This document shows, one piece after another, positions 7,971 to 59,359 of a stretch of 64,000 nt of DNA. How positions within the stretch are numbered: position 1 is the first letter of the stretch; each line of letters starts with the position of its first letter. The position numbers and the translations under genes are program-made. Source of the DNA: Mesostigma viride (Eukaryota; Streptophyta; Mesostigmatophyceae; Mesostigmatales; Mesostigmataceae); assembly GCA_009746045.1 (NCBI GenBank), contig RPFO01000127.1, positions 248,001 to 312,000 on the forward strand, written 5' to 3'. The notes beneath the pieces were generated by a model. It worked only from the letters and a program-made list of their open reading frames with translations. It made no database searches and was not told the origin of the DNA.

Positions 7971-8155
7971 GTGTGGGTGGGAGGATTACCATTGCCATGA
8001 TAGTACTTAGAAACATGACAAAGGTAGAGACACTGTCTCCGCATTAATCTACTGATGCCGAAAATGCCCGGTAAAAGTCCTCTGCAGATTGATCATGACG
8101 ATTTACAAAACAAAATCGAGCTCCAAATCCAAAGCGTATTTCCCCGGCCGTTTGC

Positions 8156-8545
8156 ACTCCCTCCCTCCCTCCCTCCCTCCCTCCCTCCCTCCCTCCCTCC
8201 CTCCCTCCCTCCCTCCCTCCCTCCCTCCCTCCCTCCCTCCCTCCCTCCCTCCCTCCCTCCCTCCCTCCCTCCCTCCCTCCCTCCCTCCCTCCCTCCCTCC
8301 CTCCCTCCCTCCCTCCCTCCCTCCCTCCCTCCCTCCCTCCCCTCCCTCCCTCCCTCCCTCCCTCCCTCCCTCCCTCCCTCCCTCCCTCCCTCCCTCCCTC
8401 CCTCCCTCCCTCCCTCCTCCCTCCCTCCCTCCCTCCCTCCCTCCCTCCCTCCCTCCCTCCCTCCCTCCCTCCTCCCTCCCTCCCTCCCTCCCTCCCTCCC
8501 TCCCTCCCTCCCTCCCTCCCTCCCTCCCTCCCTCCCTCCCTCCCT
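8156..8545. repeat. (CCCT)n microsatellite, about 390 bp
   Basis: A nearly pure CCCT run, with single-base slips near 8340, 8417 and 8472. It passes directly into the ACGC block. Long ORFs across it (PPSLPPSL, or GGREGGRE on the other strand) are artefacts of a four-base period. Confidence 0.97.
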
Positions 8546-9059
<514 letters not shown>

Positions 9060-9274
9060 CTCTTTCATTCAATGCATCATGCCCTTGTTACCGTATATAG
9101 CCACTTTAGGGGGATAAAATCCTCATCTCAGCTGTCCTGTACTGTAATTGCAGACGAGGCGGTAGTGTGGCGGATATCCTCAGGGGCAATAACCTCCACC
9201 TGCGGACTTCTACCCTGCATTCTAGCAATGGGCCACGGGGCTCGTGGGTATTAAACAGGAGCATGCCCCCCATG

Positions 9275-14502: not shown

Positions 14503-15741
14503 ATGGACCCCCCGGCACAGTTCCTGTGCCCAATCTCTTGTGACATAATGCGAGATCCCGTCATCTTAGTGGGATCTGGTCAAGTCTACGAAAGGAACTT
14601 TATAGAACAGTGGTTTACTCGAGGCAATGAGACTGACCCGCTCACAAACGTGAGGCTTTCTGACAAAACCCTGGTCCCTGTTGTAGCGCTGCGCTCGCTC
14701 ATTGAGCAATGGGTGGAGCAGCAGAGAGAACAGCAGCGTCTTGGAATTGCAGGCATGGATGCCTCGATTCCTCACATAAGCCAGGAGAGGTTGGTCTTGG
14801 GCGAACTCCTTCATAACGGGGCCATGGCTGCCGTCTCGGTGGCAGTCCTAAGACCAACGGGGCAAGAGGTTGTGGTGAAGATGTTCCACGCCAGAGGGCT
14901 GACAGATGACGAGTCCGCCAGGTTTCGGAAGGAGGTGCAAATACTGCACCAGGCATCAGTCTTTTGCCACAATGTGTGCCGCCTCATCGGGGTGGCCAGC
15001 ATTAACAGCCAGCTCTGCATGGTCATGCCGCGTTACAGTGCCTCGCTGGAACAGGTGCTGCTTCAGCAGCAGCAGACTGTCAGCAATGGAGGGGCAGCTA
15101 CCTCACAAGGCCTGCCCTTGGACCGCATCCTGAGCATCAGTCAGGATGTAGCCTTGGCCATCGCTGACCTGCATGAGCGGGGCATTATGGTGCTGGATTT
15201 GAAACCTGCCAATATATTGCTGGACAAGTATGGGCGGGCGGTGGTGGCTGATTTTGGGATCTCCGCCCTCCGAACCAGCACGATGTCACGCTACAATCCC
15301 ACATTCGGCGCGCAGGGCACGCCCAACTACATGGCGCCGGAACAGTGGATTCCCGGAGAGTTTGGGGGCATAACCACCGCGGCGGATGCATGGGGTTTCG
15401 GGTGCATTTTGGTGGAAATGGCATCCGCCACTGCTCCCTGGGCTGGCTTGAACATGTTTCAAATCATGACACACGTCACTCCCCCACGAATGATGTCTCC
15501 TGCCATCCCAGACAGCCTGCCCGGCTCGTTGCGGGACCTTGTGCGCCGCTGCTTTGCGTACCAGCCGACTGACCGGCCCCCATTTGCAGAGATCCTGGTG
15601 TTGCTGCGGCAAGGGGTGGTGAGCCAGATAGCTCAGCAACAGATCGCTCCCCAGTCACAACCCCCCGAGCCCTCTGCTGCAGCTCCACTCCCTGCCAGCC
15701 CGCAACCACCCGGGCAAGCAACCGCTGCGTCATCTGCACCG
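14503..15741 (+). CDS. Exon 1: U-box plus protein kinase domain
   Basis: 413 codons, ending CCG|GTGAGG. The U-box opens FLCPISCDIMRDPVILV and closes ALRSLIEQW; the usual Asn in the VPN segment is Val (LVPVVALRS). The kinase has a weak Gly loop (LGELLHNGAMAA, from residue 99), Lys126 (VVVKMF), the helix-C Glu144 (FRKEV), Asp232 in LDLKPANIL, Asp250 in DFG, GTPNYMAPE ending at 280, D295-x-W and Arg358 (DRPP). The catalytic Asp and metal ligands are intact, so activity is plausible. The HRD motif reads VLD, so it is a non-RD kinase, a class often tied to immune-type signalling in plants. The frame stays open past the donor to a stop at 15867, adding 41 residues without domain character; I treat that as intron read-through. 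Confidence 0.9.
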
Positions 15742-18700
15742 GTGAGGAGGATGGGGGTGCCATGTGTTTCTGCTGCGTCTGGGTTCCCCGTGCATTGCTT
15801 GGCTGTTTGTGACATAATGGCGAATGGCGCGAATGTCTTGCTCAATGAAACAAGCGATGTGTGCTGAAGCAAAAGGGGGTTAGCAAAAACCTTGTGGGCA
15901 TTCTGTGGCTTCTCTCCCCTTGTTGTTGTTATGTTCGGTCTTGAATGGGTTGGCTAATACAGCCGGCGCATGCTAGCCTTGGGAAGCTAAGTACACATGA
16001 CTGAAACGTGCACGTTTGTGTATGGTGGACCTTCTTGGGTATTATGGCCCTCACCCTTGCAAGCAGAGCAGCGCGGCATTGTTGGCTTTCTGGAAGTTGT
16101 CTGCACTAATTGCAATGTATCTGTTTTGCTGTGGCAAGACCAAGCATTTTCTGCGACGTCCTATTCCCTTGGCCCTTCCATCAGCTTGCATGTATTCACG
16201 GTGCACCACGTCTTGCGCATGGAGCCCTTTTCGAACAGGACGCTCGCCCGTCAGTGCAGCCAGCTGGCAGAGAAGGCCCACTGGATGCTATTTCAATCGC
16301 GGAGCTCCTGCGAGACATGAATGTCGCAGACAATGTACGCAATTTCTGGAACTTTTGCCTTCAGTGTTCCTTTTCTCCCTGCTTGGAATGGGGGGGCATC
16401 CGCTCCGCATGGTGCAGTCCAGAAGGCCTTCCCCAGAGAGGCAGGCATAGAAAGTGTCATGTCCTTGTGAGAAAAAGACTGTCCCAATGGGCTCAGACTT
16501 GCATACATTGTGGGTAGGGGGGTGGGGTGGCTGGCTCAGAACACCAGGTGCAGAACTGAATCGTGGCTGTGCAAATATGTTATGAGTGACCTGTATTGAT
16601 TTCATTTCTCGCTCTCATTATGGGAACGGGTACAATACAACATGGATACAGCCCCAGTTTTCGCATGCCGTTGTTTTAAAGACCTATTTTAGGAGCTCAG
16701 GACTGATAAACCAAATTTCTCGCTGTGCCGTTATGCCGAGTATTTGAGCCTGTACTCTGTACAATGGCCTGGCACTCGTTGACCTTGTGCATTTTTGTGT
16801 TGCGCATTGAAAACCCAGTATATGACTGAACACTGTAATTAACTTGAGTGTGACTTTGGTTCAGACCTTGTTGGGGTAGCAGGCATATTCGGTGAGTACT
16901 GGGATTAGTTAAGCTGATTTTTCTTCAGACTCCCAGCTACGCATAGCAGGCGGTGAACCATGAGAAGTCGGGCTGGATGTTGCAGCCTGTAGAAGTTCAC
17001 GTTTGGATAGTCTATGTGAATCTGGTCCTGAAGAACCTCAGTGAGGAGTGTCCTGCCAAGTATTTGAACATGGGCATGTACGGCCACTGATGCAAACTAT
17101 CCAGAGCATAATATGAGTGGGAACACGCCGACATTTGCACACTGTGCTTATCAGCTTATCCATTCGCGCCAACGCGTGTTTGTTGGTGCATAGAAAACGA
17201 CATAAATGGATTAATAATAAGGCGCAGCCGGTCAGGGTGCGACACAATCTACTCACCTCTGCAGCGATGCCGCTGGTCCCTCCTTTTGGTCATCGATGCT
17301 TCAGCATTGTCGTGTCAATGTTCTGGTGTGTCTTCGACAAGCCGATCTTCAGTAAGTTGGCTACACTTCCTGGAATTGATGGACACTTGATGCCGTCTTG
17401 CCCTCACCACCCCCCTCGATTGAATACCCCTACTTCAATTTCATGTCATGTCCAGGTCGGGCAGACCCCGTTGCATCGTGCAGCACAGGCAGGGCATCTC
17501 AACATTGTCCAACGCCTGGTGGCAAATGGTGCCAACATGGAAGCCAAGGACACGGTCAGTACTTGGTTCACCCCAGTTCCAACGCCGATGTAAATCCTCA
17601 GTTGAGCGTGTCATTATCAATGCTGTCAGAGCAGACTGGAATGCTAACGCATGATGCTTGATCCTAGTTACCCGGCCTTTGTGTCTAGTACGCAGCCCCT
17701 GCATTAAGATGCAACCCCAGTGCCCAGTCACATCAAGGACAACACATCCACCCCGCCCGTTGTAACCCCATTTATTCTAGACAGTTCTTGAATAAACAAT
17801 GCGAGTGTAAGTTAAGTGCAAGATCCTCCCCGTGTTGCGCATGTCTCGGGCACTAAGCGATCCCAGAACTGGGCACCCTGCCAGTGAGAAGATATCGCTA
17901 TGTTGACAAGCTGGGCACCCCATGGGATGCCTGCTGCCCATGAGGTGGATGGCTCTGCCGGGCAGGAATCGTCGCTACTGGAATCTGGATCACGGACTAC
18001 CGATCTCACTACCGTACCCAGGGCGAGGAATTCGAGAGATAACTTGCGTATGACATGGTTGTGCCGGATAGTTTTTCAAGTACTACTTAATTGCACACCA
18101 GCCTATGAGATCATGTTCCCCGCCCTTCCCCCCTCCCCCCCTTCTCTTGTGGTACCGGGTGAGGAACCGCCGAATCCATTGACCCGAGTTGCTCGCGGTG
18201 AGGTGCCTCCATTTATTGAATCTTTTCACTACCAAGCCTTCTAAAGGTGATCTGAACAGGTGTCTGGCCCGCGTTTTCGTGCCTTCCTCATCCTGACCGC
18301 CTGGCTGTCCTGAGGGGGCCATTTCTTTGCTGGGAGGCATATGCAGTGCGTTCAGCCTGTCCGTCCCATGCTGGCCGCAGCAACTGCCTGGCATGTTTCC
18401 TGATGTTGTTAATGGCATGACTGCCTCACACTGATCACACGGCTCATCCCCAGCCACATCAGTCAAGCCCCGTCCTCCGTGGTTGTACCAATGACCTTGT
18501 TTTCTGCACCAATGGTAGTTAGGGTGGAGGCTACTTGGACGTTGTAATTGGCGGTACTTTAGCCAACGAAGTGGTGGAAAGGCAGGCAAAACTCTGGGGC
18601 CGCTGGCAGGCTCATGAGTTTGGCTGTGGCCATGATCAGGGGCCATGAGGTCCACGGGTGTGTGCATGACGCATAGGTCTGTTTCATTCCCTGCAGACAT

Positions 18701-21700
18701 ATCCCCTTGCTAAGTGGGTTCCGTCGTTCCATCTGGTCCTCACGGGGACATGCTTGGCTGCTGCGTACAGGATGATTACACACCGCTGCATATTGCGTCA
18801 TGGTATGGCCACCTGGACGCGGTGGAGCACCTGGTTGCGAGCGGTGCGAACAAGGAGGCGAAGAACAAGGTCAGCTTTTCCTTTGGTCTGATTGCCGCAA
18901 GCGGATATGCTGCCACACACTGTCAGATCTGGTCTATATGAGCAATTCAATCATGCTGTAGGGTGGGCAAAAGGCTTTACCACCGCTGGTGTGATGCTTG
19001 CTACCAACTTCACGGGGTGCTCTTACGTTCCTAGCACTGGGCACCCTGCCAGTGGGAAATTGTGATGTTGAAGAGCTGTGCACCCCCTGGGATGCCTGCT
19101 GCCCATGAGGTGGATGGCTGTGCTAGGCAGGAATCGAGGCTACTGGAATCTGGATCACGGACTACCCATCCCACTTCACTACCGTACTCAGGGTGACGAA
19201 TCCGAGAGATAACTTGCGTATGACCTGGTTGTGCCGGATAGTTTTTCAAACACTACTTAATTGCACACTGGCCTGTGAGATCATGTTCCCCGCCCTTCTC
19301 CCCTCCCCCCCTTCTCTTGTGGTACCGGGTGAGGAACCGCCGAATCCATTGACCCGAGTTGCTCGCGATGAGGTGCCTCCATTTATTGAATCTTTTCACT
19401 ACCAGGCCTACTGAAGGTGATCTGAACAGGTGTCTGGCCCGCGTTTTCGTGCCTTCCTCATCCTGACCGCCTGGCTGTCCTGAGGGGGCCATTTCTTTGC
19501 TGGGAGGCATATGCAGTGCGTTCAGCCTGTCCGTGCCATGCTGGCCGCAGCAACTGCCTGGCATGTTTCCTGATGTTGTTAATGGCATGACTGCCTCACA
19601 CTGATCACACGGCTCATCCCCAGCCACATCAGTCAAGCCCCGTCCTCCGTGGTTGTACCAATGACCTTGTTTTCTGCACCAATGGTAGTTAGGGTGGAGG
19701 CTACTTGGACGTTGTAATTGGCGGTACTTTAGCCAACGAAGTGGTGGAAAGGCAGGCAAAACTCTGGGGCCGCTGGCAGGCTCATGAGTTTGGCTGTGGC
19801 CATGATCAGGGGCCATGAGGTCCATGGGTGTGTGCATGACGCATAGGTCTGTTTCATTCCCTGCAGACATATCCCCTTGCTAAGTGGGTTCCGTCGTTCC
19901 ATCTGGTCCTCACGGGGACATGCTTGGCTGCTGCGTGCAGGATGATGCCACTCCGCTGCATATTGCAGCACAGAATGGCCACCTGGAGGTCGTGAAGCAC
20001 CTGGTTGCGAGCGGTGCGAACAAGGAGGCGAAGACCAAGGTCAGCTATCCCTTTACCCTGATGGCCGCAAGCGGAGGGGCTTCCACGCACAGTTTTGGCG
20101 ATTGTGCAAGGGATTCATGTACTTGTAGGGTGGGCAAAGGGCTTTTATACCACCGATGGTGTCAGGCTTGCTGCCAACTACACTGGGCGCTGTTACATTC
20201 CCAGCACTGGCCACCCTTCCAGTGGGAAATTTCGCTGTTGACGAGCTGTGCACCCCATGGGATGCCTGCTGCCCATGAGGTGGATGGTTGTGCCAAGCAG
20301 GAATCGAGGCTACTGGAATCTGGATCATAGACTACTGATCTCACTTTCACTGCCGTACTCAGGGCGAGGAATCAGAGAGATAACATGCTAATGACATGAT
20401 AGGTGAGGAACCGCCGAATCCATTGACCCGAGTCGCACATGGTGAGGTGGCTCCATTTACTGAACCTTTTCACTACCAGGCCTTCTAAAGGTGATCTGAA
20501 CAGGCGTCTGACCCGCGTTTTCGAGCCTTCGCCATCCTGACCGTTTGGCTGTCCTGAGGGCGACTTGTTTGCTGGGAGGCATATGCAGTGCGTTCCGCCT
20601 GTCCGTGCCATGCTGGCCGCAGCAACTGCCTGGCATGTTTCCTGATGTTGTGAATGGCATGGCTGCATCACACTGATCACACGGCTTATCCCCAGCGACA
20701 TCAGGAAAGCCCCGTCCTCCGTGGTTAAGTAGCGATACCCTTGTTTTGTGCAGCGTTGTTAGTTAGGGTGGAGGCTAGTTGGACATTGTACTTGGCGGCC
20801 CTTTAGTTAGCCAACGAAGTGGTGGAAAGGCAGGCACAACTGTGGGGCCGCTTGGAGGCTCATGAGTTTGGCTGTGGCCATGATCAGGGGCCATGAGGTC
20901 CATGGGTGTGCGCATGACGCGTAGGTCTATTTCATTCACTGCAGACACATCCCCTTGCTAAGTGGGTTGTCACGTTCCATCTGGTCCTCACGGGGACATG
21001 CATGGCTGCTGTGTGCAGAATGATGCCACACCGCTGTACATTGCAGCACAGAATGGCCACCTGGAGGTCGTGAAGCACCTGGTTGCGAGCGGTGCAAACA
21101 AGGAGGCGAAGAGCAAGGTCAGCTTTTCCTTTGGTCTGATGGCCGCAAGCGGATGTGCTTCCACGCACAGTTTTCGTGATTGTGCAACGCAATCATGCTG
21201 TAGGGTGAGCAAAGGGCTTTACAACAGACGGTGTCAAGCTTGCTACCAACTCCACTGCGCGCTGCTACGTTCCCAGCACTGGGCACCCTGCCAGTGGGAA
21301 ATTTTGCTGCTGACGAGCTGTGCACCCCATGGGATGCCTCCTGCCCATGAGGTGGATGGCTGTGCCAAGCAGGAATCGTGGCTTCTGGTATCTCGATCAC
21401 GGACCACCGATCTCACTTTCACTGCCGTACTCAGGGCGAGGAATCCGAGAGATAACTTGCGTATGACATGGCTGTGCCGGATAGTTTTTCAAACACTACT
21501 TAATTGCACACCAGCCTGTGAGATCATGCTCCCCGCCCTTGCCCCCTCCCCCCTTCTCTTGTGGCGACGGGTGAGGAACTATCAAATCCATCGACCCAAG
21601 TTGCACGCGGTAAGGTGCCTCCATTTTCTGAACCTTTTCACTACCAGGCCTTCTAATGGTGATCTGAGCAGGTGTGTGGCCCGCGTTTTCGGGCCTTCCC

Positions 21701-24700
21701 CATCCTGACTGCCTGGCTGTCCTGAGGGGCCCTTAGTTTGCTGGGAGGCATATGCAGTGCATTCAGCCTGTCCGTGCCATGCTGGCAGCAGCGACTGCCT
21801 GGCATGTTTGCTGATGTTCCTAATGGCATGACTCTCTCACAAGGATCACACGGCTTATCCCCAGCCACATCAGTCAAGCCCCGTCTTCCGTGGTTGTACC
21901 GATGCCCTTGTTTTCTGCAGCGTTGTTAGTTAGGGTGGAGGCGAGTTGGACGTTGTACTTGGCGGTACCTTAGTTAGCCAACAAAGTGGTGAAAATGCAG
22001 GCACAACTGTGGGGCCGCTGGGAGGCTCATGAGTTTGGCTGTGGCCATGATCAGGGGCCATGAGGTCCATGGGTGTGCGCATGACGCGTAGGTCTATTTC
22101 ATTGACTGCAGGCACATCCCCTCGCTCAGTGGGTTCGCACGTTCCATCTGGTCCTCACGGGGACATGTGCGGCTGCTGCTTGCAGGATGATGCCACACCG
22201 CTGCATATTGCGGCATGGGATGGCCACCTGGAGGTTGTGAAGCACCTGGTTGCGAGTGGTGCGAACAAGGAGGCGAAGGCCAAGGTTAGCTTTTCCTTTA
22301 GTCTGATGGCCGCAAGCGGATGTGCTTTCACGCACTGTCAGATTTGGTCTATATGAGCAATGCAACCATGTTGTAGGGTGGGCAAAGTGCTCCACCACCT
22401 ATGGTGTCAGGCTTGCCACCAACTTCAGGGGGTGCTGTTACGTTCCCAGCACTGGGCACCCTGCCAGTGGGAAATTGATAGTAGTATGTTGACATGCTGT
22501 GCACCCCATGGGATGCCTGCTGCCCATGAGGTGGATGGCTCTGCCAGGCAGGAATCTGGATCACGGACTACGGATCTCACTTTCACTGCTATACTCAGGG
22601 CGAGGAATACGAGAGATAACATGCGTATGACATTTTTAGCCGGATAGTTTTTCAAGTGGTGGAAACTAGGCAGTCACAACTGTGGGGCCGCTTGGAGGCT
22701 CATGAGTTGGGCTGTGGCCATGATCAGGGGCCATGAGGTCCATGGGTGTGCGCATGACGCGTAGGTCTGATTCATTCACTGCAACCACATCCCCTCGCTC
22801 AGTGGGTTCTCACGTTCCATCTGGTCCTCACGGGGACATGTGTGGCTGCTGTGTGCAGGATGATGCCACACCGCTGTACATTGCAGGACAGGAGGGCCAC
22901 CTGGAGGTCGTGAAGCATCTGGTTGCGAGCGGTGCGAACAAGGAGGCGAAGACCAAGGTCAGCTTTTCCTTTAGTCTGATGGCCGCAAGCGGATGTGCTT
23001 TCACGCACTGTCAGATTTGGTCTATATGAGCAATGCAATCATGTTGTAGGGTGGGCAAAGTGCTCTACCACCGATGGTGTCAGGCTTGCCACCAACTTCA
23101 TGGGGCGCTGTCACGTTCCCAGCACTGGGCACCCTGCCGGTGGGACATTGATATGTTGACGAGCTGTGCACCCCATGGGATGCCTGCTGCCCATGAGGTG
23201 CATGGCTCTGCCAGGCAGGAATCTGGATCATGGACTACCGATCTCACTTTCACTACCGTACTCAGGATAAGGAATCCGAGAGATAACTTGCGTATGACAT
23301 GGTTTTGCTTGATAGTTTTCCAAATACTACTTAATTGCACACCGGCCTCAGAGATCATGTTCCCTGTCCTTCCCCCCTCCCATCTTCTCTTGTGGCAACC
23401 GGTGAGGAACGGCGGGATCCATTGACCCGAGTTGCACGCGGCGAGGAGCCTCCATTTACTGGACCTTTTCACTACCAGGCCTTCTAAAGGTGATCTGAAC
23501 AGGTGTCTGGCCCGCGTTTTCGGGCCTTCCCCATCCTGACCGCCTGGCTGTCCTGAGGGGGCCATTTGTTTGCTGGGAGGCATATGCAGTACGTGTGTTC
23601 AGCCTCTCTGTGCCATGCTGGCCGCAGCAACTGCCTGGAATGTTTGCTGATGTTCCTAATGGCATCACTCTCTCACAAGGATCACACGTCTCATCCCCAG
23701 CCACAGCAATAAAGCCTGTCTCTTTGTGGTTGTACGGATGCCCTTGTTTTCTGCAGCGTTGTTAGTTAGGGTTGAGGCGAGTTAGACGTGGTACTTGGCG
23801 GTACTTACCTTAGCCAACGAAGTGGTGGAAAGGCAGGCACAACTGTGGGGCCGCTGGCAGGCTCATGAGTTTGGCTGTTGTCATGATCAGGGGCTGTGAG
23901 ATCCATGGGTGTGCGCATGACGTGTAGCTCTGTTTCATTCACTGCAGACAAATCCCCCCCCTTGAGGGGTTCTCACGTTCCATCTGGTCCTCACGGGAAC
24001 ATGCGCTGCTGCTGCGTACAGAATGACTTGACCCCGCTGCATATTGCGTCACATGCGGGCAACCTGGACGTGGTGGAGCACCTGGTTGCGAGCGGTGCGA
24101 ACAAGGAGGCGAAGAACAAGGTTAGCTTTTCCTTTGGTCTGATGGCCGCAAGCGGAGGTGCTTCCACGCACTGCAGATTTGGTCTATATGAGCAATGCAA
24201 CCATGTTGTAGGGTGGGCAAAGTGCTCCACCACCTATGGTGTCAGGCTTGCCACCAAAGTTTTTCAGGGGGTGCTGTTACGTTCCCAGGACTGGGCACCC
24301 TACCAGTGGGAAATTGATAGTAGTATGTTGACATGCTGTGCACCCCATGGGATGCCTGCTGCCCATGAGGTGGATGGCTCTGCCAGGCAGGAATCTGGAT
24401 CACGGACTACGGATCTCACTTTCACTGCCGTACTCAGGGCGAGGAATACGAGAGATAACATGCGTATGACATTGTTAGCCGGATAGTTTTTCAAGTGGTG
24501 GAAACTAGGCAGTCACAACTGTGGGGCCGCTTGGAGGCTCATGAGTTTGGCTGTGGCCATGATCAGGGGCCATGAGGTCCATGGGTGTGCGCATGACGCG
24601 TAGGTCTGTTTCATTCACTGCAGCCACATCCCCTCGCTCAGTGGGTTCTCACGTTCCATCTGGTCCTCACGGGGACATGTGTGGCTGCTGTGTGCAGGAT

Positions 24701-30700: not shown

Positions 30701-33700
30701 CCCCCCTTCTGTTGTGGCAGCGGGTGAGGAACCGCCGAATCCATTGACCCGAGTGGCACGCGGTGAGGTGCCTCCATTTACTGAACCTTTTCACTACCAG
30801 GCCTTCTTAAGGTGATCTGAACAGGTTTGTGACCCGCGTTTTCGAGCCATCCCCATCCTGACCGCCTGCCTGTCCTGAGGGGGCCATAATTTGTTTGCTG
30901 GGAGGCATATGCAGTGCGTTCGTTCAGCCTGTCCGTGCCATGCTGGCCGCAGCAACTGCCTGGCATGTTTCATGATGTTGTTAATGGCGTGACTGCCTCA
31001 CACAGATCACACGGCTTATCCCCAGCCACATCAGCCAAGCCCCGTCCTCCGTGGTTGTATTAATGCCCTTGTTTTCTGCAGCGTTGTTAGTTCGGGTGGA
31101 GGCTAGCTGGACATTGTACTTGGCGGTACTTACATTAGCCTACGAAGTGGTGGAAAGGCAGGCACAACGTTGGGGCCGCTTGGAGGCTCATGAGTTTGGC
31201 TGTGGCCATGATCAGGGGCCATGAGGTCCATGGGTGTGCGCATGACGCGTAGGTCTGTTTCATTCACTGCAGACACATCCCCTTTCTTAGTGGGTTCTCA
31301 CGTTTCATCTGGTCCTCACGGGGACATGCCTGGCTGCTGCGTGCAGAATGATGCCACTCCGCTGTACGTTGCGGCACAGAATGGCCACCTGGAGGTCGTG
31401 AAGCACTTGGTCGCGAGTGGAGCGAACAAGGAGGCGAAGAACAAGGTCAGCTTTTCCTTTACCCTGAAAGCCGCAAGCGGATGTGCTTCCGCGCACAGTT
31501 TTGGTCTATATCTGTACCGCAATCATGTTTTAGGATTTGCAAAGGGCTTTACCACAGATGGTGTCAGGCTTGCTGCCAACCTCACGGGGTGCTGTTACGT
31601 TCCCAGCACTGGGCACCCTGCCAGTGGGAAACTGTGCTGTTGACAAGCTGTGCACCCCATGGGATGCCTGCTGCCCATGAGGTGGATGGCTCTGCCAGGC
31701 TGGAGTCGTGGCTACTGGAATCTGGATCACGGATCACCGATCTCACTTTCACTACCGTACTCAGGGTGACGAATCCGAGAGATAACATGCGTATGACATG
31801 GTTGTGCCGGATAGTTTTTCAAATACTACGTAATTGCACACCGGCCTGTGAGATCATGTTCCCCGCCCTTCCCCCCTCCCCCCTTTTCTTGTGGCAACGG
31901 TTGAGGAACGGCCAAATCCATTGACCCGAAGGGCACGCGGTGAGGTGCCTCCATTTCCTGAACCTTTTCACTACCAGGCCTTCTAAAGGTGATCTGAACA
32001 GGTGTCTGGCCCGCGTTTTCGAGCCTTCCTCATCCTGACCGCCTGGCTGTCCTGAGGGGGGCATTTGTTTGCTGGGAGGCATGTGCAAGGCGTTCAGCCT
32101 GTCCGTGCCCTGCTGGCAGCAGCAACTGCCTGGCATGTTTCCTGATGTTGTGAATGGCATGACTGCCTTACACGGATCACACGGCTTATCCCCAGCCACA
32201 TTAGTAAAGCCCCGTCCTCTGTGGTTGTACTGATGCCCTTGTTTTCTGCAGCGTTGTTAGTTCGGGTGGAGGCTAGTTGGACGGAGTAATCGGCGGTACT
32301 TGAGTTAGCCAACGAAGTGGTGGAAAGGCAGGCACAACTGTGGGGCGGCTGGCAGGCTCATGAGTTTGGCTATGGCCATGATCAGGGGGCCATGAGGTCC
32401 ATGGGTGTGCGCATGACGCTTAGTTCTGTTTCATTTTCTGCAGACCCATCTCCCCGCTTAGTGGGTTCCCACCTTCCATCTGGTCCTCACGGGGACATGC
32501 ATGGCTGCTCTGTGCAGGATGATGCCACTCCGCTGTATGTTGCAGCACAGAATGGCCACCTCGAGGTCGTGAAGCATCTGGTTGCAAGCGGTGCGAACAA
32601 GGAGGCAAAGAAGAAGGTCAGCTTTTCCTTTGGTCTGATGACCCCCAGCGGATGTGCTTCCACGCACTGTCAGATTTGGTCTATATGAGCTGCAATCATG
32701 TTGTAGGGTGGGCAAAGGGCTCCACCACCAATGGTGTCATGCCTGCTACCAACTTCAGGGGGTGCTGTGACTTTCCCAGCAATGGGCACCCTGCCAGTGG
32801 GAAATTGTGATGTTGACGAGCTATGCACCCCATGGGATGCCTGCTGCCCATGAGGTGGACGGCTCTGCAAGGCATGAATCGTGGCTACTGGAATCTGGAT
32901 CACGGACTACGGATCTCACTTTCACTGCCGTACTCAGGGCGAGGATTCCGAGAGATAACGTGCGTATGACATGGTTTTGCCGGATAGTTTTCCAAATACT
33001 ACTTAATTGCACACCGGCCTGTGAGATCATGTTTACCACCCTTCCCCCCTCCCCCCTTCTGTTGTGGCAGCGGGTGAGGAACCGCCGAATCCATTGACCC
33101 GAGTGGCACGCGGTGAGGTGCCTCCATTTACTGAACCTTTTCACTACCAGGCCTTCTTAAGGTGATCTGAACAGGTTTGTGACCCGCGTTTTCGAGCCAT
33201 CCCCATCCTGACCGCCTGCCTGTCCTGAGGGGGCCATAATTTGTTTGCTGGGAGGCATATGCAGTGCGTTCGTTCAGCCTGTCCGTGCCATGCTGGCCGC
33301 AGCAACTGCCTGGCATGTTTCATGATGTTGTTAATGGCGTGACTGCCTCACACAGATCACACGGCTTATCCCCAGCCACATCAGCCAAGCCCCGTCCTCC
33401 GTGGTTGTATTAATGCCCTTGTTTTCTGCAGCGTTGTTAGTTCGGGTGGAGGCTAGCTGGACATTGTACTTGGCGGTACTTACATTAGCCTACGAAGTGG
33501 TGGAAAGGCAGGCACAACGTTGGGGCCGCTTGGAGGCTCATGAGTTTGGCTGTGGCCATGATCAGGGGCCATGAGGTCCATGGGTGTGCGCATGACGCGT
33601 AGGTCTGTTTCATTCACTGCAGACACATCCCCTTTCTTAGTGGGTTCTCACGTTTCATCTGGTCCTCACGGGGACATGCCTGGCTGCTGCGTGCAGAATG

Positions 33701-36700
33701 ATGCCACTCCGCTGTACGTTGCGGCACAGAATGGCCACCTGGAGGTCGTGAAGCACTTGGTCGCGAGTGGAGCGAACAAGGAGGCGAAGAACAAGGTCAG
33801 CTTTTCCTTTACCCTGAAAGCCGCAAGCGGATGTGCTTCCGCGCACAGTTTTGGTCTATATCTGTACCGCAATCATGTTTTAGGATTTGCAAAGGGCTTT
33901 ACCACAGATGGTGTCAGGCTTGCTGCCAACCTCACGGGGTGCTGTTACGTTCCCAGCACTGGGCACCCTGCCAGTGGGAAACTGTGCTGTTGACAAGCTG
34001 TGCACTCCATGGGATGCCTGCTGCCCATGAGGTGGACGGCTGTGCCAGGCAGGAATCGTGGCTACTGGAATCTGGATCACAGACTACCGATCTCACTTTC
34101 ACTACCGTACTCAGGGCGAGGAATCCGAGAGGTAAAACGCGTATGACCTGATTGTGCCGGATAGTTTTTCAAATACTACGTAATTGCACACTGGCCTGTG
34201 ACATCATGTTCCCCGCCCTTCCCCCCTCCCCCCTTTTCTTGTGGCAACGGGTGAGGAACGGCCGAATCCATTGACCCGAAGGGCACGCGGTGAGGTGGCT
34301 CCATTTCCTGAACCTTTTCACTACCAGGCCTTCTAAAGGTGATCTGAACAGGCGTCTGGCGCGCGTTTTCGGGCCTTCCCCATCCTGACCGCCTGGCTGT
34401 CCTGAGGGGGCCATTTGTTTGCTGGATGGCATATGCAGTGCGTTCAGCCTGTCCGTGCCATGCTGGCAGCAGCAACTGCCAGGCATGTTTCCTGATGTTG
34501 TGAATGGCGTGACTCTCTCACGCGGATCACACGGCTTATCCCCAGCCAAATCTGTAAAGCCCCGTCCTCCATGGTTGTACCAATGCCCTTGTTTTCTGCA
34601 TCGTAGTTAGTTAGTGTGGAGGCGAGTTGGACGTTGTAATTGGCGGTACTTCCGTCAGCCAACGAAGTGGTGGAAAGGCAGGCACAACGTTGGGGCCGCT
34701 GGCAGGCTCATGAGTTTGGCTGTGGCCATGATCAGGGGCCATGAGGTCCATGGGTGTGCGCATGACGCGTAGGTCTGTCTCATTCACTGCAGACACATCC
34801 CCCCGATTAGTGGGTTCTTACGTTCCATCTGGTCCTCACGGGGACGTGCCTGGCTGCTGCGTGCAGGATGATTGCACAACGATGTACGCTGCGGCATATA
34901 ACGGCCACCTGGAGGTCGTGAAGCACTTGGTCGCGAGCGGAGCGAACAAGGAGGCGAAGAACAAGGTCAGCTTTTCCTTTACCCTGAAAGCCGCAAGCGG
35001 ATGTGCTTCCGCGCACAGTTTTGGTATATATCTGCACCGCAATCATGTGTTAGGATTTGCAAAGGGCTTTACCACAGATGGTGTCAGGCTTGCTGCCAAC
35101 CTCACGGGGTGCTGTTACGTTCCCAGCACTGGGCACCCTGCCTGTGGGAAATGGTGCTGTTGACGAGCTGTGCACCCCATGGGATGCCTGCTGCCCATGA
35201 GGTGGATGGCTCTGCCAGGCAGGAATCGTGGCTACTGGAATCTGGATCACGGACTACGGATCTCACTTTCACTACGGCACTTAGGGCGACGAATGCGAGA
35301 GATAACATGCGGATGACCTGATTGTGCCGGATAGTTTTTCAAATACTACGTCATTGCACACTGGCCTGTGAGATCATGTTCCCCGCCCTTCCCCCCTCCC
35401 ATCTTCTCTTGTGGCAACGGCCAAATCCATTGACCCGAGTTGGACGCGGTGAGGTGGCTCCATTTCCTGAACCTTTTCACTACCAGGCCTTCTAAAGGTG
35501 ATCTGAACAGGTGTCTGGCCTGCGTTTTCGGGCCTTCCTCATCCTGACCGCCTGGCTGTTCTGAGGGGGCCATTTGTTTGCTGGGAGGCATATGCAGTGC
35601 GTTCAGCCTGTCCGTGCCATGCTGGCAGCAGCAACTGCCAGGCATGTTTCCTGATGTTGTGATGAGTGACTGCATGGAATGTTTGCTGATGTTCCTAATG
35701 GCATCACTCTCTCACACGGATCACACGGCTTATCCCCAGCCACATTAGTAAAGCCCCGTCCTCTGTGGTTGTGCTGATGCCCTTGTTTTCTGCTGCGATG
35801 TTAGTTAGGGTGAAGGCTGGTTGGACGTGGTACTTGGCAGTACTTAAGTTAGCCAACGAAGTGGTGGAAAGGCAGGCACAACTGTGGGGCCTCTGGCAGG
35901 CTCATGAGTTTGGCAGTGGCCATGATCAGGGGCTGTGAGGTCCACGGGTGTGCGCATGACGCGTAGGTCTGTCTCATTCACTGCGGCCACATCCCCTCGC
36001 TCAGTGGGTTCTCACGTTCCATCTGGTCCTCATGGGGACAGACTTGGCTGCTGCGTGCAGGGTGATTGCACACCGCTGTACATTGCAGCACTGAATGGCC
36101 ACCTGGAGGTCGTGAAGCACCTGGATGCGAGCGGTGCGAACAAGGAGGCGAAGAACAAGGTCAGCTTTTCCTTGACCCTGATGGCCGCCAGCGGATGTGC
36201 TTCTGCACACAGTTTTGGAATATGTGCAGCGCAAGGATGCTGTAGGGTGGGCAAAGGGCTTTTATACCACCGATGGTGTCAGTCTTGCTGCCAACTCCAC
36301 TGGGCGCTGTTATGTTCCCAGCACTGGGCACCCTGCCTGTGGGAGATGGTGCTGTTGACGAGCTGTGCACCCCATGGGATGCCTGCTGCCCATGAGGTGG
36401 ATGGCTCTGCCAGGCAGGAATCGTGGCTACTGGAATCTGGATTATGGACTACCGATCTCACTTTCACTACCATACTCACATCGAGGAATCCGAGAGAACA
36501 AGCGTATGACATGGTTGTGCCGGCTTGTTTTTTAAATACTACCCAATCGCGCAGCGGCCTGTGAGATCATGTTCCCCGCCCTTCTGCCCTCCCCCCCTTC
36601 TCTTGTGGCAACGGGTGAGGAACGGCCAAATTCATTGACCGGAGTTGCACGCGGTGAGGTGCCTCCGTTTCCTGAACCTGATCACTACCAGGCCTTCTCA

Positions 36701-39700
36701 CGGTGATCTTAGCAGGTGTCTGGCCCGCCCTTTCGGGCCTTCCCAATCCTGACCACCTGGCTGTCCTGAGGGGGCCATTACTGGGAGGCATACGCAGTGC
36801 GTTCAGCCTGTCCGTGCCATGCTGGCAGCAGCGACTGCCTGGCATGTTTGCTGATGTTCCTAATGGCATCACTCTCTCACACGGATCACACGGCTTATCC
36901 CCAGCCACATTAGTCAAGCCCCGTCTTCCGTGGTTGTACCGATGCCCTTGTTTTCTGCAGCGTTGTTAGTTAGGGTGGAGGCGAGTTGGACGTTGTCCTT
37001 GGCAGTACTTAAGTTAGCCAACAAAGTGTTGGAAAGGCAGGCACAACTGTGGGGCCTCTGACAGGCTCATGAGTTTGGCTGGGGCCATGATCAGGGGCCA
37101 TGAGGTCCATGGGTGTGCGCATGACGCGTAGGTCTGTCTCATTCACTGCAGCCACATCCCCTCGCTCAGTGGGTTCTCACGTTCCATCTGGTCCTCACGG
37201 GGACATGCGTGGCTGCTACTTGCAGGATGACTGGACACCGCTGCATATTGCGGCACAGAATGGCCACCTGGAGGTCGTGACGCACCTGGTTGCGAGCGGT
37301 GCGAACAAGGAGGCGAAGACCAAGGTCAGCTTTTCCTTGACCGTGATGGCCGCCAGCAGATGTGCTTCCACGCACAGATTTGGTATATATGAGGAATGCA
37401 ATGATTTTCTAGGACGAGCAAAGGGCTCTGCCATCGATGGTGTCAGTCTTGCTACCAACTTCACGGGGTGCTGTGACGTTCCCTGCACCGGGCACCCTGC
37501 CTGTGGGAAGTTGTGATGTTGACGAGCTGTGCACCCCATGGGATGCCTGCTGCCCATGAGGCGGATGGCTCTTCCAGGCAGGAATCGTGGCTACTGGAAT
37601 CTGGATCATGGACTACGGATCTCACTTTCACTACGGCACTCAGGGCGAGGAATCCGAGAGATAACATGCGTATGACATGGTTGTGTGGTATAGTTTTTCA
37701 AGTACTACTGACTTGCACACCGGCCTGTGAGATCATGTTCCCGGCCCTTCCCCCCTCCCCCCTTCTCTTGTGGCATTGGGTGGGGAACGGCCAAATCCAT
37801 TGACCCGAGTTGCATGCGGTGAGGTGCCTCGATTTCCTGAACCTTTTCACTACCAGGCCTTCTAAAGGTGATCTGAACATGTGTCTGGCCCGCGCTTTCG
37901 GGCCTTCCCCATCCTGACGGCCTGGCTGTCCTGAGGGGGCCATTAGTTTGCTGGGAGGCATATGCAGTGCGTTCAGCCTGTCCGTGCCATGCTGGCAGCA
38001 GCGACTTCCTGGAATGTTTCCTGATGTTCCTCAAGGCATGGCTCTCTCACAAGGATCACACGGCTTATCGTACCCCAGCCACATCAGTGAAGCCCCGTCC
38101 TCCGTGGTGGTACTGATGCCCTTGTTTTCTGCAGCGTTGTCAGTGAGGGTGGAGGCTAGTTGGACCTTGTACTTGGCGGTACTTAGCTTGGCCAACGAAG
38201 TGGTGGAAACAAGGCAGGCACAACTGTGGGGCCGCTGGCAGGCTCATGAGTTTGGCAGTGGCCATGATCAGGGGCCGTGAGGACCATGGGTGTGCACATG
38301 ACGCGTAGGTCTGTCTCATTCACTGCAGACACATCTCCCTGCTTAGTATGTTCTAACGTTCCATCTGGTCCTCACGGGGACATGCGTGGCTGGTGTGTGC
38401 AGATTGATGCCACACCGCTGTACATTGCGTCAGAGAATGGCCACCTGGAGGTCGTGACGCACCTGGTTGCGCGCGGTGCAAACAAGGAGGCGAAGAACAA
38501 GGTCAGCTTTTCGGTACCGATGGAGTATGCTATCGACATGCTAGCTTGCACTGAAGTGTCGGTCCTTTCTCGACAATGTACAGGTACTGAGGTGTCCCGC
38601 TCGGCTGCGGTGGGCAGTGCACGGCGCGCAGGCCTGAATCCGTGTGTCAGCTTAAACATCTCGGCTAATGCTTTTCCTTTACCTTGAAGGCCGCAAGCAA
38701 ATGCGCTTCCATGCACAGTTTTGGAATATGTGCAGCGCAACGATGCTGTAGGGTGGGCAAGGGGCTCCACCACCAACAGCGTCAGGCTTGCTACCAACTT
38801 CACTGGGTGCTGTTACGTTCCCAGCACTGGGCACGCTGCCTGTGGGAAGTTGTGCTGTTGCCAAGCTGGGCACCCATGGGATACCTGTTGCCCATGAGGT
38901 GGAGGGCTCTGCCGGGCAGGAATCGTGGCTACAGGAATCTGGATCACAGACAATCAATCTCACTTCACTACCGTAATCAGGTCAAGAATCCGAGACATAG
39001 CATGCGTATGAGCTGGTTGTGCCGGATAGATTTTCAGATACCTCTCGCCCTCCCTGTGAGATTGTGTTTCCCGCCCCCTGCCCCCCCCCCCTCCTTGTGT
39101 TGTGGCAACGCGTAAGGAACCATGAATCCATAGACCGGAGGTGGGTGGTGAGATGGCTTCCTATACTGAACGTTTTCACCACCAGGCCTTAGGTGATATG
39201 AACAGGTTTCTGGCTGGCGTTGTCTGGCCTTCCCTGTCCTGACCACCTGGCTGTCTGAGGTCCATTTGTTTGCTGGGAGGCACATGTGGTGCGTTCGGCC
39301 TGTCCGTGCCGTGCTGCCAGCAGCAGCTGCCTGGGATCTTGGCATATGTTCTGAATGGCATGACCCTTTCACAGGGATCATAGACCTCACCCCCAGCCAT
39401 CAGTAAAGCCTGGTGCTCCGTGGTTGTACTGATACCCTTGTTTGCTGCAGCGATGTGAGTTAGGGTGGAGTCTACTTGGAATGTTGTGGTTGGCGTTACT
39501 TTTGTTCAACTGCAAAGCGCTAGAAAGAAATTGTGGGAGCCGCCTGCAGGTCGATCGCTCAATGGTTCATTTGATGTGGAAAATTTACTAGAGCCGAATT
39601 TCTAACTGACGTCTTCATAGTGGTTACTAGATACCTTGTTGAGTAAACGATTCTAAAATCTGATTCTGACGAAACCTGTACAGCTCGAAGTTACCGGACA

Positions 39701-40283
39701 GGCCACTGACCGGCCGATGGACCCACTACCTGCTGCCAGACCTACGGTCACAAGACTAGACCTGTGACCGCAGCCTGCCTGTGACCGCGGTCACCGAAAT
39801 CCCTCGGTCATGTGTGACCGCAGCCACCAAAATCCGAAGGTCATGTGTGACCGCGGGCTCCGAAATCCGGCGGTCAGCGGTCACACATGACCGCGAACCG
39901 TTAGCAAAAACACTGACAGTAATTATGTTTCTTCACTGCGCCCTAACTTTCGTGATGCCACGCCGTTATGCCCTCAATGGCATTATGATACTTGTACTAC
40001 AACGCTATACCCTGGATGGCAGAGCTGGTGGGTTGTTGTGCTTGCCCGGTACACATGGCATGCTGTTGCCGCCACAAGAGTGACTGCACGGTGCGGGCGT
40101 CTGCTGGTTTATAATGAAAAGGCAATAGAGTTTTGAACAGGATTCTATGGCTGTGTGACTTGCTGCTCCTTACCCCTATCACCTCGCTGCCTGCAGGGTG
40201 GCGAAACGGCACTGGACGTGGCCAAGCGCTACGAGCGCTCCGAGGTTGTGCAGTTCCTGGAGCAGCACGCCACGGGGCTGTAG
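14503..40283 (+). CDS. U-box / protein kinase / ankyrin-repeat protein, 22 exons
   Basis: The gene consists of exon 1 (14503-15741), twenty 99-bp ankyrin exons (17456 to 38501) and a terminal exon (40197-40283). Every intron has GT-AG ends and every junction is phase 0, so the spliced CDS is 3306 bp, 1101 residues. Order: U-box (about 6-72), linker, kinase (about 95-370), Pro/Gln-rich hinge (about 371-413), then residues 414-1101 as ankyrin repeats in exact register with the exons. U-boxes recruit E2 enzymes to ubiquitylate targets and ankyrin stacks bind partner proteins, so a ubiquitin ligase or signalling scaffold with interchangeable recognition modules is likely (inference). Land-plant kinase/U-box proteins usually carry the U-box C-terminally; here it is first. 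Symmetric exons would let repeats be gained, lost or skipped without frameshift. Start: ATG directly after an in-frame TGA. Splicing has not been verified by RNA data. Confidence 0.85.
15742..17455 (+). other. Intron 1 of the U-box gene
   Basis: It starts GTGAGG and ends TGTCCAG. It contains no ankyrin exon and no recognisable gene. A TGTAA hexanucleotide-like signal near 16835 and the stop at 15867 would permit a short polyadenylated form carrying only the U-box and kinase. Confidence 0.7.
17456..17554 (+). CDS. Ankyrin exon 1
   Basis: Begins VGQTPLHRAAQAGHLNIVQ and ends with GANMEAKDT|GTCAGT. It is the most diverged full repeat and lies outside the tandem array, so it may be the ancestral module. 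Confidence 0.9.
18771..18869 (+). CDS. Ankyrin exon 2
   Basis: Begins DDYTPLHIASWYGHLDAVE and ends in the array-wide GANKEAKNK|GTCAGC. Acceptor GCGTACAG. Confidence 0.92.
19941..20039 (+). CDS. Ankyrin exon 3
   Basis: Begins DDATPLHIAAQNGHLEVVK and ends KEAKTK|GTCAGC. Acceptor GCGTGCAG. Confidence 0.92.
21019..21117 (+). CDS. Ankyrin exon 4
   Basis: Begins NDATPLYIAAQNGHLEVVK and ends KEAKSK|GTCAGC. The preceding intron lacks about 100 bp present in sister units (joined near 20400). Confidence 0.92.
22186..22284 (+). CDS. Ankyrin exon 5
   Basis: Begins DDATPLHIAAWDGHLEVVK and ends KEAKAK|GTTAGC. It is followed by the first short intron. Confidence 0.92.
22859..22957 (+). CDS. Ankyrin exon 6
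   Basis: Begins DDATPLYIAGQEGHLEVVK and ends KEAKTK|GTCAGC. Gly replaces the usual second Ala of the IAA motif, as in exons 8 and 12. Confidence 0.92.
24022..24120 (+). CDS. Ankyrin exon 7
   Basis: Begins NDLTPLHIASHAGNLDVVE and ends KEAKNK|GTTAGC. It is nearly identical to exon 10 and distinct from its immediate neighbours, which marks a higher-order duplication or conversion. Confidence 0.92.
24698..24796 (+). CDS. Ankyrin exon 8
   Basis: Begins DDATPLYVAGQNGHLEVVK and ends KEAKAK|GTCAGC. Confidence 0.92.
25861..25959 (+). CDS. Ankyrin exon 9
   Basis: Begins DDATPLYIAAQEGHLEVVK and ends KEAKAK|GTTAGC. It is followed by a short intron. Confidence 0.92.
26529..26627 (+). CDS. Ankyrin exon 10
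   Basis: Begins NDLTPLHIASHAGNLDVME and ends KEAKNK|GTTAGC. It is a near copy of exon 7 but is followed by a long intron. Confidence 0.92.
27684..27782 (+). CDS. Ankyrin exon 11
   Basis: Begins DDATPLFVAAYNGHLEVVK and ends KEAKNK|GTCAGC. Phe stands at the His/Tyr position of the TPLH motif. Confidence 0.92.
28841..28939 (+). CDS. Ankyrin exon 12
   Basis: Begins DDATPLYVAGQNGHLEVVK and ends KEAKYK|GTCAGC. The intron after it holds an exon-less partial unit (about 29101-29260). Confidence 0.92.
30168..30266 (+). CDS. Ankyrin exon 13
   Basis: Begins DDATPLYVAAQNGHLEVVK and ends KEAKKK|GTCAGC. Its sequence is the same as exon 15. Confidence 0.92.
31347..31445 (+). CDS. Ankyrin exon 14
   Basis: Begins NDATPLYVAAQNGHLEVVK and ends KEAKNK|GTCAGC. 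Its sequence is the same as exon 16. Confidence 0.92.
32518..32616 (+). CDS. Ankyrin exon 15
   Basis: Exact copy of exon 13, offset by 2350 bp. Confidence 0.92.
33697..33795 (+). CDS. Ankyrin exon 16
   Basis: Exact copy of exon 14, offset by 2350 bp. Confidence 0.92.
34867..34965 (+). CDS. Ankyrin exon 17
   Basis: Begins DDCTTMYAAAYNGHLEVVK and ends KEAKNK|GTCAGC. The turn motif TPLH/TPLY is changed to TTMY, so this module may fold less well. Confidence 0.9.
36061..36159 (+). CDS. Ankyrin exon 18
   Basis: Begins GDCTPLYIAALNGHLEVVK and ends KEAKNK|GTCAGC. HLD replaces HLV in the second helix. Confidence 0.92.
37226..37324 (+). CDS. Ankyrin exon 19
   Basis: Begins DDWTPLHIAAQNGHLEVVT and ends KEAKTK|GTCAGC. 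It is close to the general ankyrin consensus. Confidence 0.92.
38403..38501 (+). CDS. Ankyrin exon 20
   Basis: Begins IDATPLYIASENGHLEVVT and ends in ARGANKEAKNK|GTCAGC. It is the last full repeat. Confidence 0.92.
38513..38676 (+). mobile_element. 164-bp insertion in the last intron, possible 7-bp target duplication
   Basis: Sister introns read GTCAGCTTTTCCTT without interruption. Here the sequence is split after GCTTTTC (38506-38512) and GCTTTTC recurs at 38670-38676. The inserted sequence starts GGTACCGATGG and ends CGGCTAATG, with no ORF. A GGCCTGAATCC stretch faintly resembles a tRNA B box, so a SINE-like origin is possible but unproven. Confidence 0.55.
39781..39880. repeat. 33-bp tandem repeat, three copies
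   Basis: GTGACCGCGGTCACCGAAAT-type units start at 39781, 39814 and 39847, followed by an inverted GGTCACACATGACC piece. It lies inside the last intron (38502-40196), which otherwise holds only decayed array sequence up to about 39500 and nothing recognisable beyond. Confidence 0.85.
40197..40283 (+). CDS. Terminal exon of the U-box/kinase/ankyrin gene
   Basis: After a CCTGCAG acceptor it reads GGETALDVAKRYERSEVVQ, then FLEQHATGL and a TAG stop at 40281-40283. It is a partial C-terminal capping ankyrin repeat in phase 0, 28 residues. It fits the TALDVAxRxxxxxVVxxL pattern common in final ankyrin repeats. Confidence 0.9.
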   Translation, partial: GGETALDVAKRYERSEVVQFLEQHATGL

Positions 40284-47765: not shown

Positions 47766-48400
47766 AAGTACATTTTGAGTTTTTCCAAGTTTCTTGTTTT
47801 TTGCTTGTTTCAAGTTCAGTTTTGCATAAAAAGTGTCCCCATAGCCCCTGGATCTCATCTGGAGGTAGTTGAACTAGTATATGCTACAATATACTAGGTT
47901 GTACTATTTTCTACTACATTTATACTATAATGTACTAAATTGAACTACATCTGAACTAAATGTAACTGTGATTGATGCCCCTGTAACGTCTCCCAATGCT
48001 CAATAACAGGTCTGGCCACCATTGGTGACCTCCTAGAGCCATTCACAGCTGCATTTCGTGGATCACCGAACAAAAAAAAAAATGTTTTACTTAGCCTTAT
48101 CAACATGGGAATGAGGGCTTTGGTGTGCAAACATGCATGTGTGCTAAAAATTGGACATTCTGACACTGCGCGAGAGTCTGGTAATACTTAAGCACTTCAG
48201 GTCATGATCGAAGTATAGAATGAACTGATGCAAGCAATCAAGCATTATGCAAGGAATGGAATGCTGCAATGAATTTTAGCAGTAATACTTGCAACTAGGG
48301 AACACACGATAAAGTCACGAATCTGACATGCATTGTGCCGTCATGGCACATGCATGAACATGTACACGAACAGAGGATCACGCGGACGCCCACGTGCACG
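47766..48400. other. Left subterminal region of the nested element
   Basis: AT-rich sequence with repeated GTACTA / TTGAACTA words (about 47865-47965). No ORF of note. Confidence 0.5.
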
Positions 48401-48424
48401 CGCATGGCAATCCCCATGCCCCCC

Positions 48425-48600
48425 CCACACACACACACACAAGCCCCAACTCCAAACATTGCACCAATGACCCACCCACCCAAACCCAACCCCAGCCCCC
48501 CTGACCCCCCCAGCGCCCATGCACACGCCCATGCCCCCGCCCCCGCCCCCGCCCGCCCGCCCCGCCCCGCCCCCGCCCCCCCCCGCCCCCGCCCCGCCCA
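48425..48600. repeat. C-rich low-complexity sequence, CA and CCCCGCC runs
   Basis: (CA)n near 48429-48442, then CCCCGCC-type runs at about 48530-48600, leading into the hexamer array. Confidence 0.8.
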
Positions 48601-48629
48601 TGCCCATGCCCCTGCCCCCGCACCCGCCC

Positions 48630-48825
48630 ATTCTCACCCACGCCCACGCCCACGCCCACGCCCACGCCCACGCCCATGCCCACGCCCACGCCCACGCCCA
48701 CGCCCACGCCCACGCCCACGCCCACGCCCACGCCCACGCCCACGCCACCCCACGCCCACGCCCACGCCCACGCCCACGCCCACGCCCACGCCCACGCCCA
48801 CGCCACGCCCACGCCCACGCCCACC
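48630..48825. repeat. (CCCACG)n hexamer array, block 1
   Basis: About 30 units with rare single-base slips. ORFs through it (PTPTPT, HAHAHA, WAWAWA, GVGVGV) are artefacts of a six-base period. Confidence 0.95.
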
Positions 48826-59115: not shown

Positions 59116-59123
59116 GTATCTTA

Positions 59124-59348: not shown

Positions 59349-59359
59349 GGATAAATTTT

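Follow-up and report, generated by a model that had tools for sequence, protein, structure and literature searches.

The window, a 64,000-nucleotide stretch of a Mesostigma viride contig, contains a gene of 23 exons and 22 introns encoding 1133 residues in a model corrected with the EukProt model P0001 (Table 1). The preliminary description, which counted 21 junctions and 1102 codons, had missed one exon (16239-16334), but its account of a first exon carrying a U-box and a protein kinase, followed by twenty phase-0 ankyrin exons of 99 bp and a final capping exon with a stop codon, is borne out. All 20 ankyrin exon matches, spanning 17456 to 38501, are 99 bp long, bounded by AG...GT and free of stops. 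The U-box domain match in exon 1 scores 66.3 bits against a Pfam cut-off of 21.4. The kinase catalytic-loop D..K..N and DFG motifs are invariant in the six sequences compared, while the glycine-rich loop, a motif with three glycines in kinases, is not intact as only the middle glycine is kept; with the other two replaced, the kinase may therefore be weak.

Table 1. Features of the U-box, kinase and ankyrin gene; positions are those of the window.
Feature	Position	Strand	Remarks
Exon 1	14503..15741	+	413 codons; phase-0 donor GT at 15742; U-box and protein kinase head (Pfam); P0001 joins here
U-box domain, residues 4-76	14512..14730	+	PF04564, E 2.7e-18
Protein kinase domain, residues 101-365	14803..15597	+	PF00069, E 7.9e-37; catalytic-loop D..K..N and DFG present
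Exon upstream of first ankyrin exon, probably N-cap	16239..16334	+	96 bp, phase 0, AG/GT; encodes the 32 extra residues of P0001
Ankyrin exon 1	17456..17554	+	distinct first repeat, similar across the other genes
Ankyrin exon 2	18771..18869	+	also in P0001
Ankyrin exon 3	19941..20039	+	99-bp match
Ankyrin exon 4	21019..21117	+	99-bp match
Ankyrin exon 5	22186..22284	+	99-bp match
Ankyrin exon 6	22859..22957	+	99-bp match
Ankyrin exon 7	24022..24120	+	99-bp match
Ankyrin exon 8	24698..24796	+	99-bp match
Ankyrin exon 9	25861..25959	+	99-bp match
Ankyrin exon 10	26529..26627	+	99-bp match
Ankyrin exon 11	27684..27782	+	99-bp match
Ankyrin exon 12	28841..28939	+	99-bp match
Ankyrin exon 13	30168..30266	+	99-bp match
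Ankyrin exon 14	31347..31445	+	99-bp match
Ankyrin exon 15	32518..32616	+	protein identical to ankyrin exon 13
Ankyrin exon 16	33697..33795	+	protein identical to ankyrin exon 14
Ankyrin exon 17	34867..34965	+	99-bp match
Ankyrin exon 18	36061..36159	+	99-bp match
Ankyrin exon 19	37226..37324	+	99-bp match
Ankyrin exon 20	38403..38501	+	99-bp match
19 introns separating ankyrin exons	17555..38402	+	13 of 19 are 1056-1095 bp
C-cap exon	40197..40283	+	28 codons and stop; stop ends at 40283

P0001 is 100% identical to the window gene over exon 1 and places 32 residues between this exon and the first ankyrin exon. The exon encoding them probably caps the array at its N-terminal end and has counterparts in the related loci C1690a, C1690b, C113, C2023a and C2023b; sequences related to the C-cap exon occur in C1690b, C2023a and C2023b. 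In both P0001 and P0002, which may be predictions rather than transcripts, the U-box, kinase and N-cap run on into ankyrin repeats; P0002 also extends to a C-cap. We infer that the window gene is spliced across its whole array.

The ankyrin exons were duplicated along with their introns, whose identity within the array has a median of 87.3% and a maximum of 100%, and the pairing of exons 13-14 with 15-16 is a recent two-unit duplication. Exon copies in four arrays (window, C1690a, C113, C2023b) are 100% indel-free, with all exon matches kept and none dropped, as against a mean of 3-54% for 99-bp windows of the flanking introns, among which single windows reach 100%.

Twenty additional matches to exon 1 are present in the M. 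viride genome. The five best-followed paralogues share one layout, a head and then an array of 14 to at least 50 exons of 99 bp, with different arrays in each. One repeat per phase-0 exon of 99 bp is found intact in 154 of the 156 plus-strand matches across six genes, and just 1 of 143 distinct exon proteins is common to more than one of them. Four of the heads differ by only dS 0.05-0.09, so that differing arrays stand behind near-identical heads. Head and array were not found together everywhere: the relative C2133 has no such array in the approximately 8.7 kb downstream (10-kb stretch examined), P0004 carries a U-box and a kinase but no ankyrin, and the array at C777, in which two of four ankyrin matches are intact, has no head recognised by eye among the long ORFs of the 10 kb examined. 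Elsewhere in the genome, a TIR exon (TIR_2, E 5.4e-13) lies upstream of a homologous ankyrin array to which it would be joined, and the ankyrin module is probably common to alternative signalling heads (U-box/kinase and TIR). The domain combination, which the preliminary description did not recognise, looks rare: of the 120 matches listed out of 1280, just three, all Mesvir1 entries, combine U-box, kinase and ankyrin Pfam labels.

Selection differs between the parts of these genes. The heads (residues 1-376) are under purifying selection, with dN/dS of 0.09-0.20 in all 15 pairs (pairwise NG86 without a phylogeny, the pairs not being independent). By the same pairwise measure, array codons 1, 3, 11, 12, 32 and 33, a set adjusted after variability had been seen, have dN/dS of 1.32-5.23 in six of six genes, and the remaining codons 0.18-0.41. 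The set of DARPin design positions, which was fixed beforehand and has 31 in place of 32, gives 1.25 pooled, but 0.78 in C113. At their first two bases, the codons of the adjusted set exceed the diversity of the upstream intron in all six genes, with bootstrap intervals from 100 replicates lying within 1.41-4.83 times the intron value, while other array codons reach 0.24-0.76 times that value, and codons most variable in five genes are also variable in the sixth. The third bases of the surface codons likewise exceed the upstream intron in 6/6 genes, and locally elevated mutation or exchange may therefore add to selection. The variable codons are those of the hairpin and inner helix, the predicted binding face, within a conserved framework. 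The predicted structure of P0002 contains five 33-residue ankyrin helix pairs and a cap pair at pLDDT 79-94 from residue 431 on, in a model that is weak overall (pTM 0.50) and has its N-cap helix at pLDDT below 60.

A chance or decayed array is rejected given intact, indel-free exons, constrained framework codons and diversified surface codons. Near-neutral expansion, whereby recent tandem duplication lengthens the arrays and the head or first few repeats alone are expressed, would accommodate both the joint duplication of exons and introns and the sequence of P0001, which ends by running into the second ankyrin intron, i.e. after two repeats. We nevertheless regard it as very improbable, as intact exons coexist with frequent intron indels and the division into constrained framework and diversified surface codons holds over the arrays.

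We posit, with reasonable though far from complete confidence, that the window holds a single gene for an intracellular recognition protein whose array evolves by tandem turnover of exon units. The protein would consist of a U-box with predicted ubiquitin transfer activity, a kinase, the N-cap, 20 ankyrin repeats and the C-cap. Its ankyrin solenoid would bind a partner, probably a non-self molecule, upon which U-box and kinase would mark the target or signal, in a putative immune or allorecognition role. Tandem duplication and unequal exchange of exon-plus-intron units of ~1.17 kb would let the array grow, shrink and reshuffle, each event gaining or losing one whole repeat in frame because every unit carries 99 bp in phase 0, and selection would keep the scaffold while diversifying the binding face. 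A binding face that varies much faster than the remainder of the protein is what one would expect if a recognition receptor were changing rapidly. The five paralogues with different arrays and variable hairpin and inner-helix codons also favour the earlier suggestion of a cassette system with a readily changed recognition surface.

Diversity could additionally arise at the RNA level if the symmetric phase-0 exons were skipped or combined by alternative splicing to yield many proteins per gene, a possibility compatible with turnover of exon units that we hold only tentatively. P0002 agrees at 99.5% with the head of C2023c (L007) and exactly with the second ankyrin exon there; its next three exons are none of the six found in 7 kb of C2023c, and its C-cap is the same as in C2023b. 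Splice variants are also reported for the brown-algal analogue (PMC11378527). P0002 may instead stem from a different strain, from collapse in the assembly or from an incomplete model. The locus L007 is not a broken gene, as its in-frame stop sits past the donor site, within intron 1. We consider it unlikely that ankyrin cassettes common to U-box/kinase and TIR heads form a combinatorial system, in which arrays are recombined (between strains, in clonal culture or by splicing) so often that cells differ in their receptors, giving an early-diverging streptophyte an adaptive-like repertoire.

No description of this gene family was found among the titles and abstract openings listed from the open-access literature. 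By term look-up, 'Ankyrin' and 'U-box' are absent from the main texts of two Mesostigma genome papers, as far as those texts were available, and 'ankyrin' from the available part of a plant pattern-receptor survey (PMC10834447). According to a survey of fungi, highly alike repeats are very rare in green plants, at 0.4% (PMC4986451). M. viride is a single-celled green alga and early-diverging streptophyte, here found to carry long one-repeat-exon genes with dozens of ankyrin exons. A green-lineage system in which ankyrin cassettes follow a ubiquitin-ligase/kinase head, and probably TIR as well, would represent an independent origin and make receptor diversity via exon-array recombination testable in algae without a known adaptive system. 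The arrays are also a natural equivalent of libraries of designed ankyrins (DARPins).

Among proteins with a similar head, P0005 (from EukProt) and P0006 (from a metagenome) have U-box then kinase at 33-34% identity and carry no ankyrin label. Fungal NLRs share with the window family near-identical repeats (ANK, TPR or WD), which change in number, alternative effector heads, and positive selection on the inner helices and hairpin of their ankyrins (PMC4986451). The window family lacks their NOD/NACHT core, and one repeat per exon is not described for fungal NLRs in the part of that source consulted. The exon plan itself is not unusual, contrary to the initial claim. Mouse Ank3 has 20 repeat-coding exons (2b-21), of which 16 hold a single repeat and 14 measure exactly 99 bp (table in PMC4449188), and starts such as ag/AATGG hint that register and phase are as in the window gene; partner domains differ, and near-identical repeats or array turnover are not described in the sections available. 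This shared plan, together with Ankyrin-1/2 and DARPins being among the best sequence matches in solved structures, would fit a large animal-ankyrin-like scaffold with fixed endogenous partners, its repeats varying to suit numerous partners and not through an arms race. We think such a scaffold unlikely, as repeats here are near-identical, nearly identical heads carry different arrays, and change at binding-face codons outpaces that in introns.

A close parallel to a receptor with turnover of exon units comes from brown algae, whose ROCO and NB-ARC-TPR genes were reportedly studied by Zambounis 2012 and Teng 2023, which are known to us via a citing paper. That paper describes equal-length one-repeat exons of a single phase in ROCO (LRR) and NB-ARC-TPR genes, positively selected concave-face residues, and a proposal that these genes are candidate immune receptors (PMC11378527, in the part consulted). 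Equal-length, same-phase repeat exons and diversified ligand-face codons are shared with the window family. The brown-algal genes, from another eukaryotic lineage, have LRR exons of 72 bp in phase 2 or TPR repeats behind ROC-COR or NB-ARC heads, whereas the window family has ankyrin exons of 99 bp in phase 0 behind U-box/kinase and probably TIR heads. Neither exon 1 nor any of P0001-P0003 has a Pfam match to an NB-ARC/NACHT or ROC-COR domain at E 0.001, and the window gene is therefore an analogue, not a member, of the brown-algal type.

The Mesostigma viride gene encodes both its U-box and its protein kinase in exon 1, which is 100% identical to the EukProt gene model P0001 (labelled Mesvir1). 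This model, which may itself be a prediction, joins exon 1 to a 32-residue exon and to ankyrin exons 1 and 2, then runs on into the following intron. The preliminary description of a head exon, twenty one-repeat ankyrin exons and a capping exon was correct except for this overlooked 32-residue exon, uncovered through P0001, which brings the gene to 413 + 32 + 660 + 28 = 1133 residues. We call the exon an N-cap from its position and sequence; a helix (residues 417–425, pLDDT <60) lies at the same place in the predicted model of the paralogue P0002. The paralogues C2023a and C2023b each carry the N-cap exon twice, with copies ~1.5 kb apart.

Coordinates of features in the window and of ankyrin-exon matches elsewhere in the genome
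Feature	Coordinates	Strand	Observation
Exon called N-cap	16239-16334	+	
Twenty ankyrin exons	17456-38501	+	all exactly 99 bp, AG/GT-flanked, phase 0 open
Stretch with introns 13 and 15	30168-34866	+	
Final exon	40197-40283	+	C-cap with stop
Long simple-sequence tracts	8055-9254; 48335-49563		source of spurious ORFs
ORF of 808 residues	45153-47579	-	proline/alanine-rich; no Pfam match at E 0.01
LTR-type retrotransposon pieces	55818-60991	-	gag, aspartic protease, reverse transcriptase, Tf2-1-like SH3 domain
Four ankyrin-exon matches	G000:C1690:7052899-7056375	-	~36-39 kb upstream of C1690a head; probably a separate array, distinct from C1690a
More ankyrin-exon matches	G000:C1 12497582-12501231; C1790:1335846; C1752:2756-7600		no U-box/kinase match near

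P0002, also a EukProt model that may be a prediction, misses the U-box start; in it the rest of the U-box is linked to the kinase, the N-cap, five ankyrin repeats and a C-cap. It matches at 99.5% the L007 head of C2023c, a relative of the gene, and shares its second ankyrin exon with the 7-kb stretch (L035) of C2023c, where AG and GT flank five of six exons and the sixth has a GC donor. The other three internal P0002 exons are absent among these six, a mismatch that may reflect skipped exons, a different strain or an incomplete model.

A search of the 440-Mb assembly (2243 contigs), in which the window spans C1735:248001–312000, with exon 1 revealed 20 further places matching at least 365 residues at 47–97% identity, two of which have a stop inside the matched stretch (C1446 and C2023c, the latter beyond the splice site). 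Downstream DNA was examined for seven of the 20: C1690a (60 kb), C1690b, C113 and C2023a (40 kb each), C2023b (36.8 kb), the exon-1 relative C2133 (10 kb) and C2023c (7 kb). A nucleotide profile made from 147 intact exons found no array exon in the 10 kb of C2133. Over the six genes sharing the window-gene layout, 154 of 156 plus-strand matches were intact, a count that leaves out two minus-strand matches in C1690b and that strongly decayed copies could escape because the profile was made from intact exons. Genome matches indicate that two arrays run past the examined DNA (C1690a, at least 50 exons; C113, at least 34).

Array intactness, intron relationships and surface-codon selection in the six genes
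Gene	Intact/plus-strand exon matches	Best intron match in own array	Surface-codon dN/dS
Window	20/20	14/19	2.27
C1690a	49/49	37/44	1.32
C1690b	14/15	6/13	2.75
C113	31/31	27/29	1.61
C2023a	20/21	14/17	2.76
C2023b	20/20	11/16	5.23

Heads had dN/dS of 0.09–0.20 in all 15 pairs (residues 1–376). Within-gene comparison of 148 internal exons, excluding two broken matches and six first exons, gave a pooled dN/dS of 1.71 at surface codons 1, 3, 11, 12, 32 and 33 (hairpin and inner helix) and 0.26 (range 0.18–0.41) at all other array codons, these values being counted over non-independent pairs with gene conversion possible. A predefined set, taken from the positions randomised in DARPins and differing in that 31 replaces 32, gave 1.25 (pooled; range 0.78–4.48), and its mean diversity exceeded that of random six-codon sets (permutation p 0.004). 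At bases 1–2, surface-codon diversity exceeded that of the upstream intron flank in all six genes (bootstrap intervals of the ratio between 1.41 and 4.83, 100 replicates), and other codons reached 0.24–0.76 times the intron value. Third bases of surface codons also exceeded the intron in every gene (0.222–0.314 vs 0.091–0.226), partly because some third-base changes are nonsynonymous; a locally higher mutation or exchange rate may contribute. The six most variable codons picked from five genes showed diversity of 0.32–0.51 in the sixth. Codons 1, 3, 8, 11 and 32 appeared in every such pick, so codon 8 (inner helix) is also variable despite lying outside the surface set.

Intron comparison indicates that introns were duplicated along with exons: of 138 introns with a long match in the U-box/kinase genes, 109 are most similar to another intron of the same array. 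Within the window, introns 13 and 15 show no difference across 1080 bp, pointing either to a two-unit duplication that is very recent or to a duplication introduced during assembly. The first two array introns of C1690a and C1690b are 97–98% identical and the arrays differ beyond them (at least 49 vs 14 intact exons), and only 1 of 143 exon proteins is common to different genes. Exons within arrays have diverged more (pooled dS 0.26) than the four most similar heads have from one another (dS 0.05–0.09), so either array turnover is fast or the heads have been homogenised. Together, the paralogues and the selection pattern strengthen the earlier idea of a cassette system with a readily changed recognition surface.

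Arrays probably also occur with other heads. C1752 carries on its minus strand a TIR domain (TIR_2, E 5.4e-13) that is followed ~1.7 kb downstream by a degenerate 105-bp ankyrin exon and, 2.7 kb from the domain, by the first intact one; 11 of 12 matches are intact, and array introns show median identities of 74–77% to those of the U-box/kinase arrays. A phase-0 GT donor after the TIR domain would permit a putative TIR–ankyrin junction. TIR was found at this one of the two other-headed arrays examined, the second being C777. The genome holds 17 more near-full-length TIR matches, one with two stops.

We infer a recognition function and an immune role for the window gene family. In the available portions of the published accounts, brown-algal ROCO genes have 72-bp phase-2 exons each encoding one LRR, four concave sites under positive selection and splice variants (PMC11378527), and fungal NLRs contain ANK repeats that are nearly identical to one another and show selection at inner-helix and hairpin sites (PMC4986451). 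Those portions describe a U-box/kinase head for neither system. The exon plan itself, previously described as unusual, is shared with mouse Ank3, which likewise has 99-bp exons in the accessible part of its account (PMC4449188). We therefore file the Mesostigma genes as an analogue of the ROCO, NLR and Ank3 systems, and as a new variant outside the NLR and ROCO families.
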